34,502 nt of DNA from a virus: positions 1 to 34,502 of the IMG/VR virus record IMGVR_UViG_3300005511_000866; one strand, written 5' to 3'. The notes beneath the pieces were generated by a model. It made no database searches. It saw nothing but the letters and a program-made list of their open reading frames with translations, and was not told the origin of the DNA. A program made the translations under genes and the position numbers. Of this stretch, positions 19,492-23,788 are shown piece after piece (position 1 is the first letter of the stretch; each line of letters starts with the position of its first letter).

Positions 19492-20370
19492 ATGTCCATC
19501 AGGAAACTTCCAGCCGCCCGCGAAGGCCGGCTGAGCGGCGGCGTGCGCAGCGAGATCCTGCCACGGGCGTTCGACCGCTGGCACGCCGGCGTGCGCGCCG
19601 CGGGTGACGACACCGAGCGCACCATCAGCGTGTACGACGTGATCGGCTACGACTACTGGAGCGGCGAGGGCGTGACCGCCAAGCGCGTCGCTGGCGCGCT
19701 GCGCGCCATGGGGAAGGGCCCTGTCACCGTCAACGTGAACTCGCCGGGCGGGGACATGTTCGAAGGTCTGGCCATCTACAACCTCCTGCGCGAGCACGAG
19801 GGCGAGGTGACGGTGAAGGTGCTCGGCCTGGCCGCCTCCGCTGCTTCCGTGATCGCGATGGCCGGCGACACCGTGCAGATCGCGCGGGCCGGGTTCTTCA
19901 TGATCCACAACGCCTGGGTCGTGGCCGCGGGGAACCGCAACGATCTGCGCGAGTTCGCCGAGTGGCTGGAACCGTTCGACGCTGCCATGGCGGACATCTA
20001 CTCCGCGCGCACCGGCGAAGACTCGAAAACGATCGCGAAGCTCATGGACTCGGAGAGCTGGATCGGCGGCTCTCAGGCCGTCGAGGACGGCTTCGCCGAC
20101 GAACTGCTGCCGTCAGACCAGGTCGAGCAGAAGGGCGCGAAGGCGTCCGCCTCCGCTGTCCGCCGCATCGAGGCTGCGCTGCGCGCATCCGGCATGCCGA
20201 AGTCCGAGGCCCTGCGCCTCATCAGCGAGTTCAAGTCCGGCAAGGGTGACCCTGCCGGCGGCGGTGAGGGTGATCCCACCGAACCCGGCCAGCCGGCCGG
20301 CCCCGCGGGCGACCAGTCGGTCCTCGCTGCCCTCAAGGGTTTCTCTCTCAACCTCCATCCGAAGGAATGA
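19492..20370 (+). CDS. ClpP-like head maturation protease
   Basis: This 292-residue protease would process the capsid scaffold domain. It has the ClpP-like oxyanion segment NSPGGDMFEG (83-92), the nucleophile region GLAASAASVIAMAGD with likely Ser116, and the His139 motif FFMIHNAW. After the protease domain (to about 205) a linker and a Gly/Pro-rich tail follow, as in phage head proteases with an added scaffold-like C terminus. The start has GGGAG six bases upstream. The stop overlaps an ATG of the capsid frame. Confidence 0.92.
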   Translation: MSIRKLPAAREGRLSGGVRSEILPRAFDRWHAGVRAAGDDTERTISVYDVIGYDYWSGEGVTAKRVAGALRAMGKGPVTVNVNSPGGDMFEGLAIYNLLREHEGEVTVKVLGLAASAASVIAMAGDTVQIARAGFFMIHNAWVVAAGNRNDLREFAEWLEPFDAAMADIYSARTGEDSKTIAKLMDSESWIGGSQAVEDGFADELLPSDQVEQKGAKASASAVRRIEAALRASGMPKSEALRLISEFKSGKGDPAGGGEGDPTEPGQPAGPAGDQSVLAALKGFSLNLHPKE

Positions 20371-20372
20371 CC

Positions 20373-21569
20373 ATGACCACGCAAACCGCTGACCCCGAAA
20401 AGATCCAGGCCGAGCTCAAGCGCATCGGCGATGAAGTGAAGTCGCTCGCCGAAAAGGCGCTGTCCGACATCAAGAACAACGGCAAGATGTCCGACGAGCT
20501 CCGCGCGAGCGTCGACAAGGTGCTGCTGCAGCAAGGCGAAATGCAGGGCCGCCTGCAGGCGGCCGAGCAGCAGGTCGCCGTGCTCGCCCAGGGCGGCGGC
20601 GGGGAGAAGGTCAAGCCGAAGACCCTCGGCCAACTCGTGGTCGCGTCCGAGGACTTCCAGGCGTGGCTGAAGGCCGGCGGCATCAGCTCGCGCAACGCCA
20701 GCTTTGCGATGAAGATCAACGCGGCGCTGAGCAGCATCGGCAGTGCCGGTGACCTGGTCGACCCCATGCGTCTTCCGGGCATCGTGCCGCCGGGCCTGCG
20801 CCGCATGACCATCCGCGACCTGATGGCCCCGGGCCGCACGGACAGCAACGCGATCCAGTACGTGAAGGAAACCGGCTGGACGAACGCGGCGGCGACCGTG
20901 TCCGAAACGGTGAAGAAGCCCGAGTCGAACATCGAGTTCGACCTGGTCAACCAGCCGGTGGTCACCATCGCGCACTTCATCAAGGCCTCGAAGCAGATCC
21001 TCGATGACGCGCCGCAGCTGCAGTCGTACATCGATTCGCGCCTGCGCTACGGCCTCGCGCTCGTCGAGGAGACGCAACTGCTCAAGGGCTCGGGTGTGGG
21101 CAACAACCTGAACGGCATCTACACCCAGGCCACGAACTACGCCGCGCCGATCGACCCGCCCGGTACCGAGACGCGCATCGACGTGATCCGCCTGATGCTG
21201 CTGCAGGCGGAACTGGCCGAGTTCCCGTCCGACGGCATCGTGCTGCATCCGTCGGACTGGACGGCGATCGAACTGACGAAGGACACGACCGGCTCGTACA
21301 TCTTCGCCAACCCGCAATCGCTGGCCGCGCCGGTGCTGTGGGGCCGCCCGGTGGTGGCCACGCAGGCGATGTCCATCGACACCGCGCTGGTGGGCGCGTT
21401 CCGCGCGGGTTCCCAGATCTTCGACCGCGAGGAAGCCAACGTGGTGATCGCGACGCAGAACGAAGACGACTTCGTGAAGAACATGATCACGATCCGTGGC
21501 GAAGAGCGCCTGGCGTCGGCGGTGTACCGCCCCGAGGCCTTCATCCGCAACACGAACCTGCCGAACTGA
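20373..21569 (+). CDS. Major capsid protein, HK97 fold, with N-terminal delta domain
   Basis: The 398-residue protein forms the icosahedral head. Residues about 1-75 are a charged coiled-coil delta (scaffold) domain (KIQAELKRIGDEVKSLAEKA) likely removed by the upstream protease. The HK97 core follows, with LRRMTIRDLMAPGRTDSNAI, the E-loop-side TGWTNAAATVSETVKKPESN, and DGIVLHPSDWTAIELTKD. I prefer the ATG at 20373: AAGGA (20362-20366) is six bases before it and directly abuts the alternative ATG at 20367, which overlaps the protease stop. Confidence 0.95.
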   Translation: MTTQTADPEKIQAELKRIGDEVKSLAEKALSDIKNNGKMSDELRASVDKVLLQQGEMQGRLQAAEQQVAVLAQGGGGEKVKPKTLGQLVVASEDFQAWLKAGGISSRNASFAMKINAALSSIGSAGDLVDPMRLPGIVPPGLRRMTIRDLMAPGRTDSNAIQYVKETGWTNAAATVSETVKKPESNIEFDLVNQPVVTIAHFIKASKQILDDAPQLQSYIDSRLRYGLALVEETQLLKGSGVGNNLNGIYTQATNYAAPIDPPGTETRIDVIRLMLLQAELAEFPSDGIVLHPSDWTAIELTKDTTGSYIFANPQSLAAPVLWGRPVVATQAMSIDTALVGAFRAGSQIFDREEANVVIATQNEDDFVKNMITIRGEERLASAVYRPEAFIRNTNLPN

Positions 21570-21583
21570 TCGGGAGCGACGTG

Positions 21584-22323
21584 ATGCGCGTCCCTTGTGA
21601 CATCCTGGGCGACTTCGTCCACGGGGCCATGAACCTCGTGGCGGGCCAGTCCGGCGTCCACCTGCCGGAATCGCTGGCGCGCGACCTCGCGCTGCGTGGT
21701 CTCGTGCGGGTGGGCGCCTCGGCCGCGCCGCCGCCTGGAGGTGCCCGCGAGGGAAAAGCGCTGGCCGCTGGCAGGGCGCAGACGTCGTCTGCCTCGCCAG
21801 CGGCCCCAGTCTCAACGACGCGGACCTCGCGCGCGTCCGCCGGTGGCGCGACGGCGGCGAGCAGCGGTTCGTCGTCGTCACGAACACGACGTTCCGGGCC
21901 GCCCCCTGGGCCGACGTCCTCATCTTCGTTGACCGGGCCTGGCACGTGATGCACCGCGACGAAGTGGTCCGCGATTTCCGCGGCGCGGCCGTGACGCCGG
22001 CGGCGGGGGTGGCCGGCGTGGAAAAGGTGCGGTTCACGCCGCCGGTGCAGAACTCGGGCGCCGCCGCGATCGCGCTGGCTCACCAGTTCGGCGCGCGCCG
22101 CGTCGTGATGCTGGGCTACGACTGCCAGAAGGTCGGCCGCCTGGTGCACTGGCACGGCGACCACCCGGCGGGCCTCGGCAATGCCGGCTCGATGCCGAAG
22201 TGGCCCGCTCAGTTTGCCGCCGTGTCGCGACAGGTGGAGGGCATGCAGGTGGTCAACGCCTCGCGGGCGACGGTCCTGGACTGCTTCCCGCGCGTGGCCC
22301 TGGAGGATGCGCTGTGCGCCTGA
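21584..22323 (+). CDS. Post-capsid small protein fused by apparent -1 frameshift to a DUF115-like transferase domain
   Basis: Two reading frames meet here. The first starts at ATG 21584 with GGGAG upstream and encodes a small basic protein (LPESLARDLALRGLVRVGAS); unshifted it would end at 21949 as a 121-residue product with a low-complexity tail. The second, in the -1 frame, encodes a domain with ASGPSLNDADL, VVVTNTTFRAAPWADVL, MLGYDCQKVG and HWHGDHPAGLGNAG, like phage DUF115-type, possibly sugar- or pterin-related proteins. That frame has no ATG, GTG or TTG between 21601 and 21942. A slip at GGGAAAA (21751-21757) would give 58 plus 188 residues, 246 in all. A one-base indel is the main alternative. 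The next gene starts inside its 3' end. Confidence 0.62.
21737..21805 (+). promoter_or_regulatory. Candidate programmed -1 frameshift signal
   Basis: In the upstream frame the heptamer reads G GGA AAA (21751-21757), a canonical slippery form. GGAGG (21737-21741) lies nine bases before it, like the stimulatory Shine-Dalgarno element of bacterial frameshift sites. Five bases after it a perfect 10-bp stem forms between GGCCGCTGGC (21763-21772) and GCCAGCGGCC (21796-21805), capped by a second stem GCAGAC/GTCTGC (21778-21783 with 21787-21792). Confidence 0.5.
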
Positions 22324-23168
22324 TGACCGGCATGCAGGGCCTGGGGGACAACTTCTACCAGCGCGCCGTGGTGCGCCAGCTGGGCGAGCTGCACCTAGTC
22401 ACGGCGTGGCCGCAGCTGTACGCCGACCTCCCGGTGCAGTGCGTACGCCCGGACACGCGCCTGCGCACGCAGGCGAAGAACGCCGCCCGGGACGATCTGC
22501 CGTGGGTGGCGGCGCCGCGGCGGCATCCGGTAGCGGCCCGGTTGGGCTACGACACGAAGGGCACGATCCTGCAGAGCATGCTGCGATCGGCGGGGATCGA
22601 CCGCACCGCGGTGAACTTCGACGGGCCGCCCGTGGAGCGCAGGGAGGGGCGCTACATCGTCGTGCGCCCGGCCACGGTGCGCAGCGAGTGGCCCGCGGCC
22701 GCGCGCAACCCGGACCCGGCCTACCTGTGCCGGGCGGTGGATGCGCTGCGCGACCGCTACACGGTGATCAGCGTGGCCGACATCGACGGCCGCAACGAGT
22801 GGGGCATCGCGCCACTGCCGCGGGCAGACGTCCACTTTCACGGCGGCGAGCTGCTGCTCGAGGACCTGCTCGAACTGGTCGCCGGTGCGGCCGGCGTGGT
22901 CGGCGGGGTGGGCTGGCTGCTGCCGGCAGCCATCGCCTACCGCGTGCCGATGCTGCTGGTCTACGGCGGCTGGGGCGCGGTGAACGGACCGCAGCGGTTG
23001 CTGGATCCCAGGATGGACAGCAGCCGCATCGTGCAGGCCATGCCCGACCGGTTCTGTATGTGCAACGACCGGGCGCACACCTGCGCCAAGACGATCACGA
23101 ACTTCGACGACGCCGTCGAGCGCTTCGCCGCGCTGATGGCCGACCAGGTGGAGGCGATTCCGACATGA
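22314..23168 (+). CDS. GT-B/GT9-like glycosyltransferase-like protein
   Basis: The 284-residue protein begins RLMTGMQGLGDNFYQRAVVR, a Gly-rich loop (GLGD, 9-12) like that of heptosyltransferase-type GT9 enzymes, followed by LHLVTAWPQLYADLPVQCVR. The C-terminal half has AGAAGVVGGVGWLLPAAIAY and VPMLLVYGGWG, like a GT-B nucleotide-sugar site, and ends with a cysteine cluster (CMCNDRAHTC). The GTG at 22314 has GGAGG seven bases upstream and overlaps the preceding gene by ten bases; an ATG at 22323 is an alternative. It may transfer a sugar to a virion or host component; substrate is unknown. Confidence 0.72.
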   Translation: MRLMTGMQGLGDNFYQRAVVRQLGELHLVTAWPQLYADLPVQCVRPDTRLRTQAKNAARDDLPWVAAPRRHPVAARLGYDTKGTILQSMLRSAGIDRTAVNFDGPPVERREGRYIVVRPATVRSEWPAAARNPDPAYLCRAVDALRDRYTVISVADIDGRNEWGIAPLPRADVHFHGGELLLEDLLELVAGAAGVVGGVGWLLPAAIAYRVPMLLVYGGWGAVNGPQRLLDPRMDSSRIVQAMPDRFCMCNDRAHTCAKTITNFDDAVERFAALMADQVEAIPT

Positions 23169-23788
23169 ACCTGCAGGGGCTCGAAGCGTTCGCCGATGGG
23201 CAGCTCGTGTGGCTGCCGGAGCTGGGCATGGGGTACTACCCCGTGCAGGAGCAGCCCTACGATGACGCGTACTGGGAGCGCTACCGCGTGATGGACCGGA
23301 CGCCGTGCGGCGAGATGCTGACGACGATGCGCCAGGCCTGGGTGCGGCACTTCTACGCCGGCCGGGTGTGCGACATCGGCATCGGCGGCGGCCGATTCGT
23401 CGAGGACGGTGGGCACTTCGGATTCGACGTGAACCCGCGGGCGGTGGACTGGCTGCAGCAGTTCGGCTGGTTCTGGAACCCCTACACGGGGCCGCTCGAG
23501 GCCGTGACCTTCTGGGACTCGCTCGAGCACATCCACGACCCGGCCATGCTGCTGGGAAACGTCACGCGCTGGGCGTTCGTGTCGCTGCCGATCTTCGCCG
23601 ACGCGGCGCACATTCGCCGCTCCAAGCACTTCCGCAAGGACGAGCACTGCCTGTACTTCACGCGCGATGGCTTCGTGGCGTTCATGGAGCGGCACGGGTT
23701 CGACCTGGCCGGCGAGACGGACATGGAGCAGTCGGCGGGCCGCGAGGACATCCAAACCTTCGCCTTCCGTCGGAGGACTGCGCCGTGA
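23165..23788 (+). CDS. SAM-dependent class I methyltransferase-like protein
   Basis: This 207-residue protein has motif I VCDIGIGGGRFVE (68-80), an acidic SAM-ribose residue in HFGFDVNP (Asp88), and a motif IV-like FWDSLEHIHDPAML (116-129). This fits methyltransferases of the type that act on small molecules or sugars. The ATG overlaps the glycosyltransferase-like gene (ATGA), so the two are coupled. Together with the DUF115-like domain they form a three-gene cassette between capsid and connector genes. Methylation of a sugar or of a virion protein is plausible but not shown. Confidence 0.82.
   Translation: MNLQGLEAFADGQLVWLPELGMGYYPVQEQPYDDAYWERYRVMDRTPCGEMLTTMRQAWVRHFYAGRVCDIGIGGGRFVEDGGHFGFDVNPRAVDWLQQFGWFWNPYTGPLEAVTFWDSLEHIHDPAMLLGNVTRWAFVSLPIFADAAHIRRSKHFRKDEHCLYFTRDGFVAFMERHGFDLAGETDMEQSAGREDIQTFAFRRRTAP

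Follow-up and report, generated by a model that had tools for sequence, protein, structure and literature searches.

A very probable programmed −1 frameshift fusing a small post-capsid protein to an MptE/DUF115-fold domain in a family of phages

Introduction

How is a protein domain translated when its reading frame offers no start codon at which a ribosome could begin? The question is raised by a viral record from IMG/VR, 34,502 bases long and analysed here in its entirety (the window), in which the major capsid gene is followed by a small open reading frame (ORF) and, in the −1 frame of that ORF, by a coding stretch with the features of an enzyme domain. An earlier sequence-only reading of the window had proposed that the two parts are joined by a programmed −1 frameshift, naming one extra G in the GGG at 21774-21776 as the rival explanation. 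A precedent for such a shift exists in the tail-chaperone genes G/GT of phage lambda, where slippage by −1 at GGGAAAG in a late morphogenesis gene yields a short protein and an extended one (PMC5009743). Comparison of the locus with its relatives leads us to conclude that the small domain and the enzyme domain are very probably fused by a programmed −1 frameshift conserved in a phage family.

Results

The junction downstream of the capsid gene

The locus comprises the following features.

20367..21569, + strand: major capsid gene (PF05065, E 5.4e-56; phrog_10), adjoining the small ORF upstream
21572..21576, + strand: GGGAG, the Shine-Dalgarno-like (SD) sequence for the small post-capsid ORF, seven bases ahead of the ATG at 21584
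21584..21949, + strand: small post-capsid ORF, 0 frame, 121 aa unshifted; its N-terminal part belongs to the DUF7210 family by alignment with relatives
21737..21741, + strand: GGAGG, candidate internal SD-like stimulator, nine bases upstream of the heptamer
21751..21757, + strand: predicted slip site G_GGA_AAA (GGGAAAA), phased to the upstream (small-ORF) frame
21763..21772, + strand: 5' arm of the stimulator stem, GGCCGCTGGC, with 10/10 pairs to the 3' arm
21778..21783, + strand: 5' arm of the inner stem, GCAGAC, from the sequence and fold of the window
21787..21792, + strand: 3' arm of the inner stem, GTCTGC, likewise from sequence and fold of the window
21796..21805, + strand: 3' arm of the stimulator stem, GCCAGCGGCC, which doubles as coding sequence for ASGP
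21757..22323, + strand: −1 frame part of the predicted fusion, MptE/DUF115-fold and sialyltransferase-like; 188 codons and a stop; phrog_4603
22323..23168, + strand: downstream gene (phrog_6804), its ATG overlapping the stop of the enzyme domain; its relative in D14Q carries the annotation family 9 glycosyltransferase
23165..23788, + strand: methyltransferase gene of the same cluster (PF13489, E 3.8e-10; phrog_6564)

All positions that the sequence-only reading had given for G_GGA_AAA, the GGAGG nine bases before it, the perfect 10-bp stem five bases after it (spacer GCGCT) and the inner stem proved to be correct. From 21751 onward the −1 frame codes for 190 codons, to 22320, with its stop at 22321-22323. 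As had also been claimed, this frame is start-less: from its stop at 21598-21600 up to the GTG at 21946 it holds no ATG, GTG or TTG. The shifted product is predicted to have 58+188 = 246 aa, in agreement with the roughly 246 residues anticipated.

The combination of elements is singular within the window. On both strands together there are 34 heptamers of the form XXX(A/T)3N, and only GGGAAAA at 21751-21757 has a perfect 9-bp stem 4-10 nt downstream; the SD sequence ahead of it makes it the only triple of heptamer, stem and SD. Random windows generated from an order-1 Markov model contained on average 0.01 heptamers with a stem and 0.000 triples. The segment 21758-21813 has a folding energy of −36.6 kcal/mol (z −3.89), and none of 200 shuffles was equally stable. 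A search of the slip site against Rfam matched no family.

Beyond the enzyme domain, the glycosyltransferase-like phrog_6804 gene and the methyltransferase gene form a sugar-modification-like cluster at 22323-23788, which lies within the head module and overlaps the end of the enzyme gene.

Relatives share the −1 arrangement

The enzyme domain is present in phages D3, PMG1, Psp6, PAJU2, P1 and others as well as in viral contigs and bacterial genomes. In D3, where the gene order is capsid, orf6.5 and orf7, the homology of orf7 reaches upstream past the annotated start codon into the −1 frame of orf6.5, and the same arrangement was found in nearly every relative sited after a capsid gene. A first harvest of 105 loci was reduced to 75 once near copies had been removed, and a second harvest with other query sequences supplied 51 further non-redundant loci of the same type. 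With L256 and L300 dropped as doubtful, the MptE/DUF115-like phrog_4603 domain has its reading frame at −1 relative to that of the small post-capsid ORF in 124 non-redundant loci; these share ancestry, and the family counts given here are not independent trials, none of them being a literal probability. The upstream gene was the capsid gene in 70 of the 72 relatives in which it could be checked.

We scanned the domain frame for starts from the last −1-frame stop (or from −140) to the conserved VVCIASGPSL motif. ATG, GTG and TTG were absent from 69 of the 75 loci of the first set and from 44 of the 51 of the second, as against only 7 of 75 control stretches of equal length, and 40 of the 75 first-set loci were devoid of near-cognate starts as well. 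Where the last −1-frame stop lies at most 60 nt from the motif (25 of 75 loci), the slip codon is located between stop and domain in every case (25/25). The stop codon of the −1 frame even adjoins CCC directly in L021, L026, L032 and L050; in L021 and L026 eight codons lead from the stop to the motif, and none is a start.

One homologue, L205:1348-2088, lies immediately downstream of a capsid gene and encodes both domains in a single continuous frame of 247 aa, for which it has an ATG and an SD; the slip site is absent. Such a homologue had been regarded in the sequence-only reading as speaking against a frameshift. Beside 124 shifted relatives, we take the single case as support for the fusion, since it argues that the fusion is one of the forms that occur in nature. 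Relatives in which the enzyme domain follows a head-tail adaptor gene instead possess their own ATG (PAJU2, L082, L114, L119), and on the protein tree the frameshift and own-start states switch about seven times.

Slip motifs keep their phase and follow the slippage ranking of E. coli

A slip site in the phase of the small ORF occurs in 115 of the 124 loci, whereas the remaining two phases have one in 15 and 13; among homologues with their own start or frame, it occurs in 1 of 20. The commonest motifs in the 124-locus set are C_CCT (51), C_CCC (27), CCCTTTN (17), GGGAAAA (7) and CCCAAAG (6), and the rarer ones comprise GGGAAAC (3), GGGGGAA (3), AAAAAAG (2), AAAGGGC (1) and a few others. The motif is swapped at constant phase on different branches, with GGGAAAA, AAAAAAG, AAAGGGC and CCCAAAG as examples.

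The choice of the proline codon is narrow. A Pro codon stands at −30..−21 in 68 loci of the first set, and it is CCC in 68/68; counting every Pro codon there gives 71 CCC, 4 CCG and 4 CCA. Farther along the domain, CCC makes up 25% of the Pro codons. The base after CCC is T in 50 of these 68 loci, C in 15, A in 2 and G in 1, and the small-ORF frame reads C_CCY, whereas other Pro codons are followed by G (298), A (207), C (206) and T (189). Physics likely accounts for C_CCU: by moving back one base, tRNA-Pro would trade a wobble pair for a full pair.

The family counts can be set beside measurements. A survey in E. coli ranked the Z_ZZN tetramers in the order A_AAG, U_UUC, U_UUU, C_CCU = C_CCC and A_AAA, with C_CCA and C_CCG weak, and its best heptamers were CCCAAAG, GGGAAAG and AAAAAAG (PMC4066793). 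As judged by sequence, the candidate slip motifs of the family are largely this measured set, and the order of bases after CCC agrees with it (PMC4066793).

Some members deviate. L325 and L330 have the frameshift-type arrangement with no recognised in-phase slippery motif near the junction, and in L007 and L285 the slip site lies farther upstream than usual. In L007 (Psp6), an in-phase T_TTT_TTG 114 nt before the motif is the only recognised site. GGGGGAA stands in phase in L288, L290 and L308; it is the motif of many frameshifts in the SEA-PHAGES collection (PMC10885494).

The downstream stem and the upstream SD

RNAalifold did not recover the stem on the family alignment, and we therefore counted its pairing directly. 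The 10-bp stem was paired in 91.4% of the cells, as opposed to 24-57% for slid versions, and 13 cells were compensatory, compared with 2.2 in shuffles. Synonymous resampling gave a mean z of −1.07 for the family, negative in 62 of 75 loci, and 0 of 100 resamples of the window were equally stable; the value for own-start homologues was −0.27, and there was hardly any excess there or in control windows. On this comparative evidence, we consider the stem to be under selection beyond codon usage. Pairing to the anti-SD peaks for the 8-mer ending 7-11 nt before the slip codon, with roughly one locus in three showing strong pairing.

The sequence-only reading had looked to homologues for conservation of all three elements of the junction. 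This expectation was borne out for the stem, which is paired and shows compensatory changes, but not for the exact GGGAAAA and GGAGG, since the usual slip motif in the family is a C_CCY tetramer and its SD is variable.

The two domains

The two pieces of the window alone gave no significant family in Pfam, so profiles of relatives were needed. The enzyme domain of the window matches phrog_4603 with E 1.4e-45, as do 49 of 49 relatives. Pfam MptE-like (PF01973) scores 15.6 bits on the window, below the cut-off of 34.6, and reaches E<=0.01 in 33 of the 49 relatives; the earlier description as "DUF115-like" is thus a fair one. A sequence search of the PDB with the domain profile found nothing significant. 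The AlphaFold model of the domain (pLDDT 92.8) has its closest PDB fold in 8sd5 (MptE/DUF115 fold, E 9.5e-5), followed by a weaker match to the sialyltransferase ST6GALNAC2 (E 0.01). A sialyltransferase or other glycosyl-transfer activity is accordingly putative, drawn from annotation and a weak fold match.

Of 45 relatives aligned with the small domain, 23 match DUF7210 (PF23843); the protein of the window itself has no Pfam match. The model of the small domain (pLDDT 78) was matched by Foldseek to 2lsm, the C-terminal domain of lambda gpFI, with a probability of 0.98 but an E of 0.14. Comparison of DUF7210 with the same gpFI domain gave 59% in hhalign and a sub-threshold E of 0.96 in hmmsearch.

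Discussion

Proposed mechanism

Ribosomes translating the small post-capsid gene would reach G_GGA_AAA and be delayed there by the GGAGG behind and the 10-bp stem ahead. A fraction of them may slip one base back, re-pair on GGG_AAA and continue into a 246-aa fusion of the DUF7210-family and MptE/DUF115-fold parts, while the rest would produce the short protein alone. The enzyme domain presumably cannot start on its own. In most relatives, slippage would take place on a single Pro codon, C_CCU or C_CCC, which re-pairs as CCC. This model is built on sequence and comparison, namely the frame relation, the missing starts, the phase of the slip motifs, the stem, the SD peak and the one-frame fusion L205, and the frameshift and fusion proposed by the sequence-only reading gain strong support from the 124 relatives, from that in-frame fusion and from the exchange of motifs in the same phase.

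Alternative explanations

The same arrangement in 124 distinct related sequences makes a sequencing error very unlikely. More generally, a single-base insertion, by error or mutation, in the GGG at 21774-21776 would mean that the domain originally shared a gene with the third frame (REKRWPLAG), and that third frame is indeed open in the window from a GTG at 21696. We regard this as exceedingly improbable, because the −1 relation is conserved in the 124 loci, stop codons interrupt the third frame close to the junction in 72 of 126 loci and also in L014, the nearest relative, and a second record (L002) is identical to the window. It is also very improbable that the domain is a separate protein made from an unusual start codon with no frameshift. 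The homologues with an ATG of their own at other gene positions would fit such a start, as would the D3 group, which has GTG or TTG at −48. This codon is used by some annotators and is not kept in L112, L204 and L207. A separate start is opposed by the 69 of 75 loci free of ATG, GTG and TTG, by the 40 that lack near-cognate starts too and by the eight start-less codons of L021 and L026, and it leaves both the phase-locked slip motifs and the one-frame L205 fusion unexplained. Transcriptional slippage was rejected because neither C_CCY nor GGGAAAA is a long run of a single base, and stop-and-restart because the small ORF ends away from the junction and a start codon is absent.

If the programmed frameshift is real, the stem could still be a by-product of the conserved RW and ASGP codons, the slip codon and the SD being sufficient. 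The tryptophan and ASGP are conserved in own-start homologues too, RNAalifold predicted no such stem, and several members have weak ones (L071 −10.4, L047 −9.7). We nevertheless consider a by-product unlikely: the excess upon synonymous resampling is seen in the family and not in own-start homologues or control windows, compensatory cells exceed the shuffled expectation, and L031 and L049 keep the arm CCGCTGGT though the frame there no longer codes for the RW motif.

What the fusion might do

The weak likeness of DUF7210 to the prohead-binding domain of gpFI led us to propose an enzyme carried on a prohead-binding protein. Tentatively, the small domain would bind proheads as lambda gpFI does, and the shift would tether the enzyme to them. 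The full scheme is more doubtful still: in hundreds of phages a C_CCY shift would place a glycosyl-transfer enzyme on a gpFI-like prohead binder, and a set fraction of head-bound chaperones would modify the capsid during assembly. A somewhat stronger possibility, yet one short of probable, is that the fusion is produced without any role in the head, and that the small protein acts purely as a leader for expression, by which the amount of enzyme is set. The sub-threshold resemblance to gpFI would agree with a leader, and so would the enzyme working from its own start at other positions and the finding that PmgO of P1 is nonessential in the laboratory (PMC10695390), from which a conditional role would be expected. 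A mere leader is harder to reconcile with an N-terminal domain that is a conserved folded family and follows the capsid gene in almost every member, with the retention of the fusion in L205 without a frameshift, and with homologues annotated as structural proteins. The latter are PAJU2 ORF010 (L008) and a protein of Klebsiella phage Eowyn (L341), whose annotations hint at the presence of the enzyme-domain homologue in the virion.

Relation to known systems

The proposed site resembles lambda G/GT in that a −1 shift on a G_GGA_AAR heptamer would yield a short and a longer protein, but the genes are different ones right after the capsid gene, the extension has an enzyme fold, and the family mostly uses a C_CCY tetramer. 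In T3, A2, A118 and PSA, a frameshift likewise appends a C-terminal domain to a protein of the structural module (PMC5009743); there the coat or tail protein itself gains an Ig-like domain, whereas here a separate small post-capsid protein would gain an MptE/DUF115-fold domain. The IS1/IS3 family and dnaX share the use of a Z_ZZN or X_XXZ_ZZN motif with an SD and/or downstream structure (PMC4066793), although the common tetramers of IS elements are A_AAG, U_UUU, U_UUC and A_AAA (PMC4066793) and C_CCY dominates the phage family. Lambda gpFI is also encoded directly after the capsid gene, and its C-terminal domain weakly resembles DUF7210 in fold and profile; unlike the proteins described here, gpFI has no enzyme domain, and the resemblance is below significance.

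The open-access literature yielded no description of frameshifting with a sialyltransferase, DUF115 or glycosyltransferase in phages, an absence that is no proof, and as far as we found there, this large frameshift family is apparently undescribed. C_CCY is shift-prone in E. coli assays (PMC4066793) and does not figure among the common natural sites in the literature cited. The few conserved frameshifts on record in phages would thus be joined by a new and widespread gene pair, one in which natural selection appears to reproduce the experimental rule for single-codon C_CCY slippage. If the gpFI-like reading were true, recoding would deliver enzymes to the prohead and offer a route to capsid modification. 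Bare C_CCY is absent from the backward motifs of the PRFect predictor (PMC10885494), and such sites are therefore probably missed.

Public annotations of D3 (L006), D14Q (L010), PMG1 (L011) and phi1 (L012) truncate the enzyme gene inside the domain, start it at the unlikely GTG at −48 or omit it; here and in relatives the gene is misannotated because the frameshift went unrecognised. In L023, L024, L025, L026, L028, L029 and L032, and likewise in L045, L057, L085, L095, L100 and L107, the enzyme ORF continues for about 1450-1900 nt without a stop (about 1100 nt in L073), in apparent fusion with the next gene, a glycosyltransferase.
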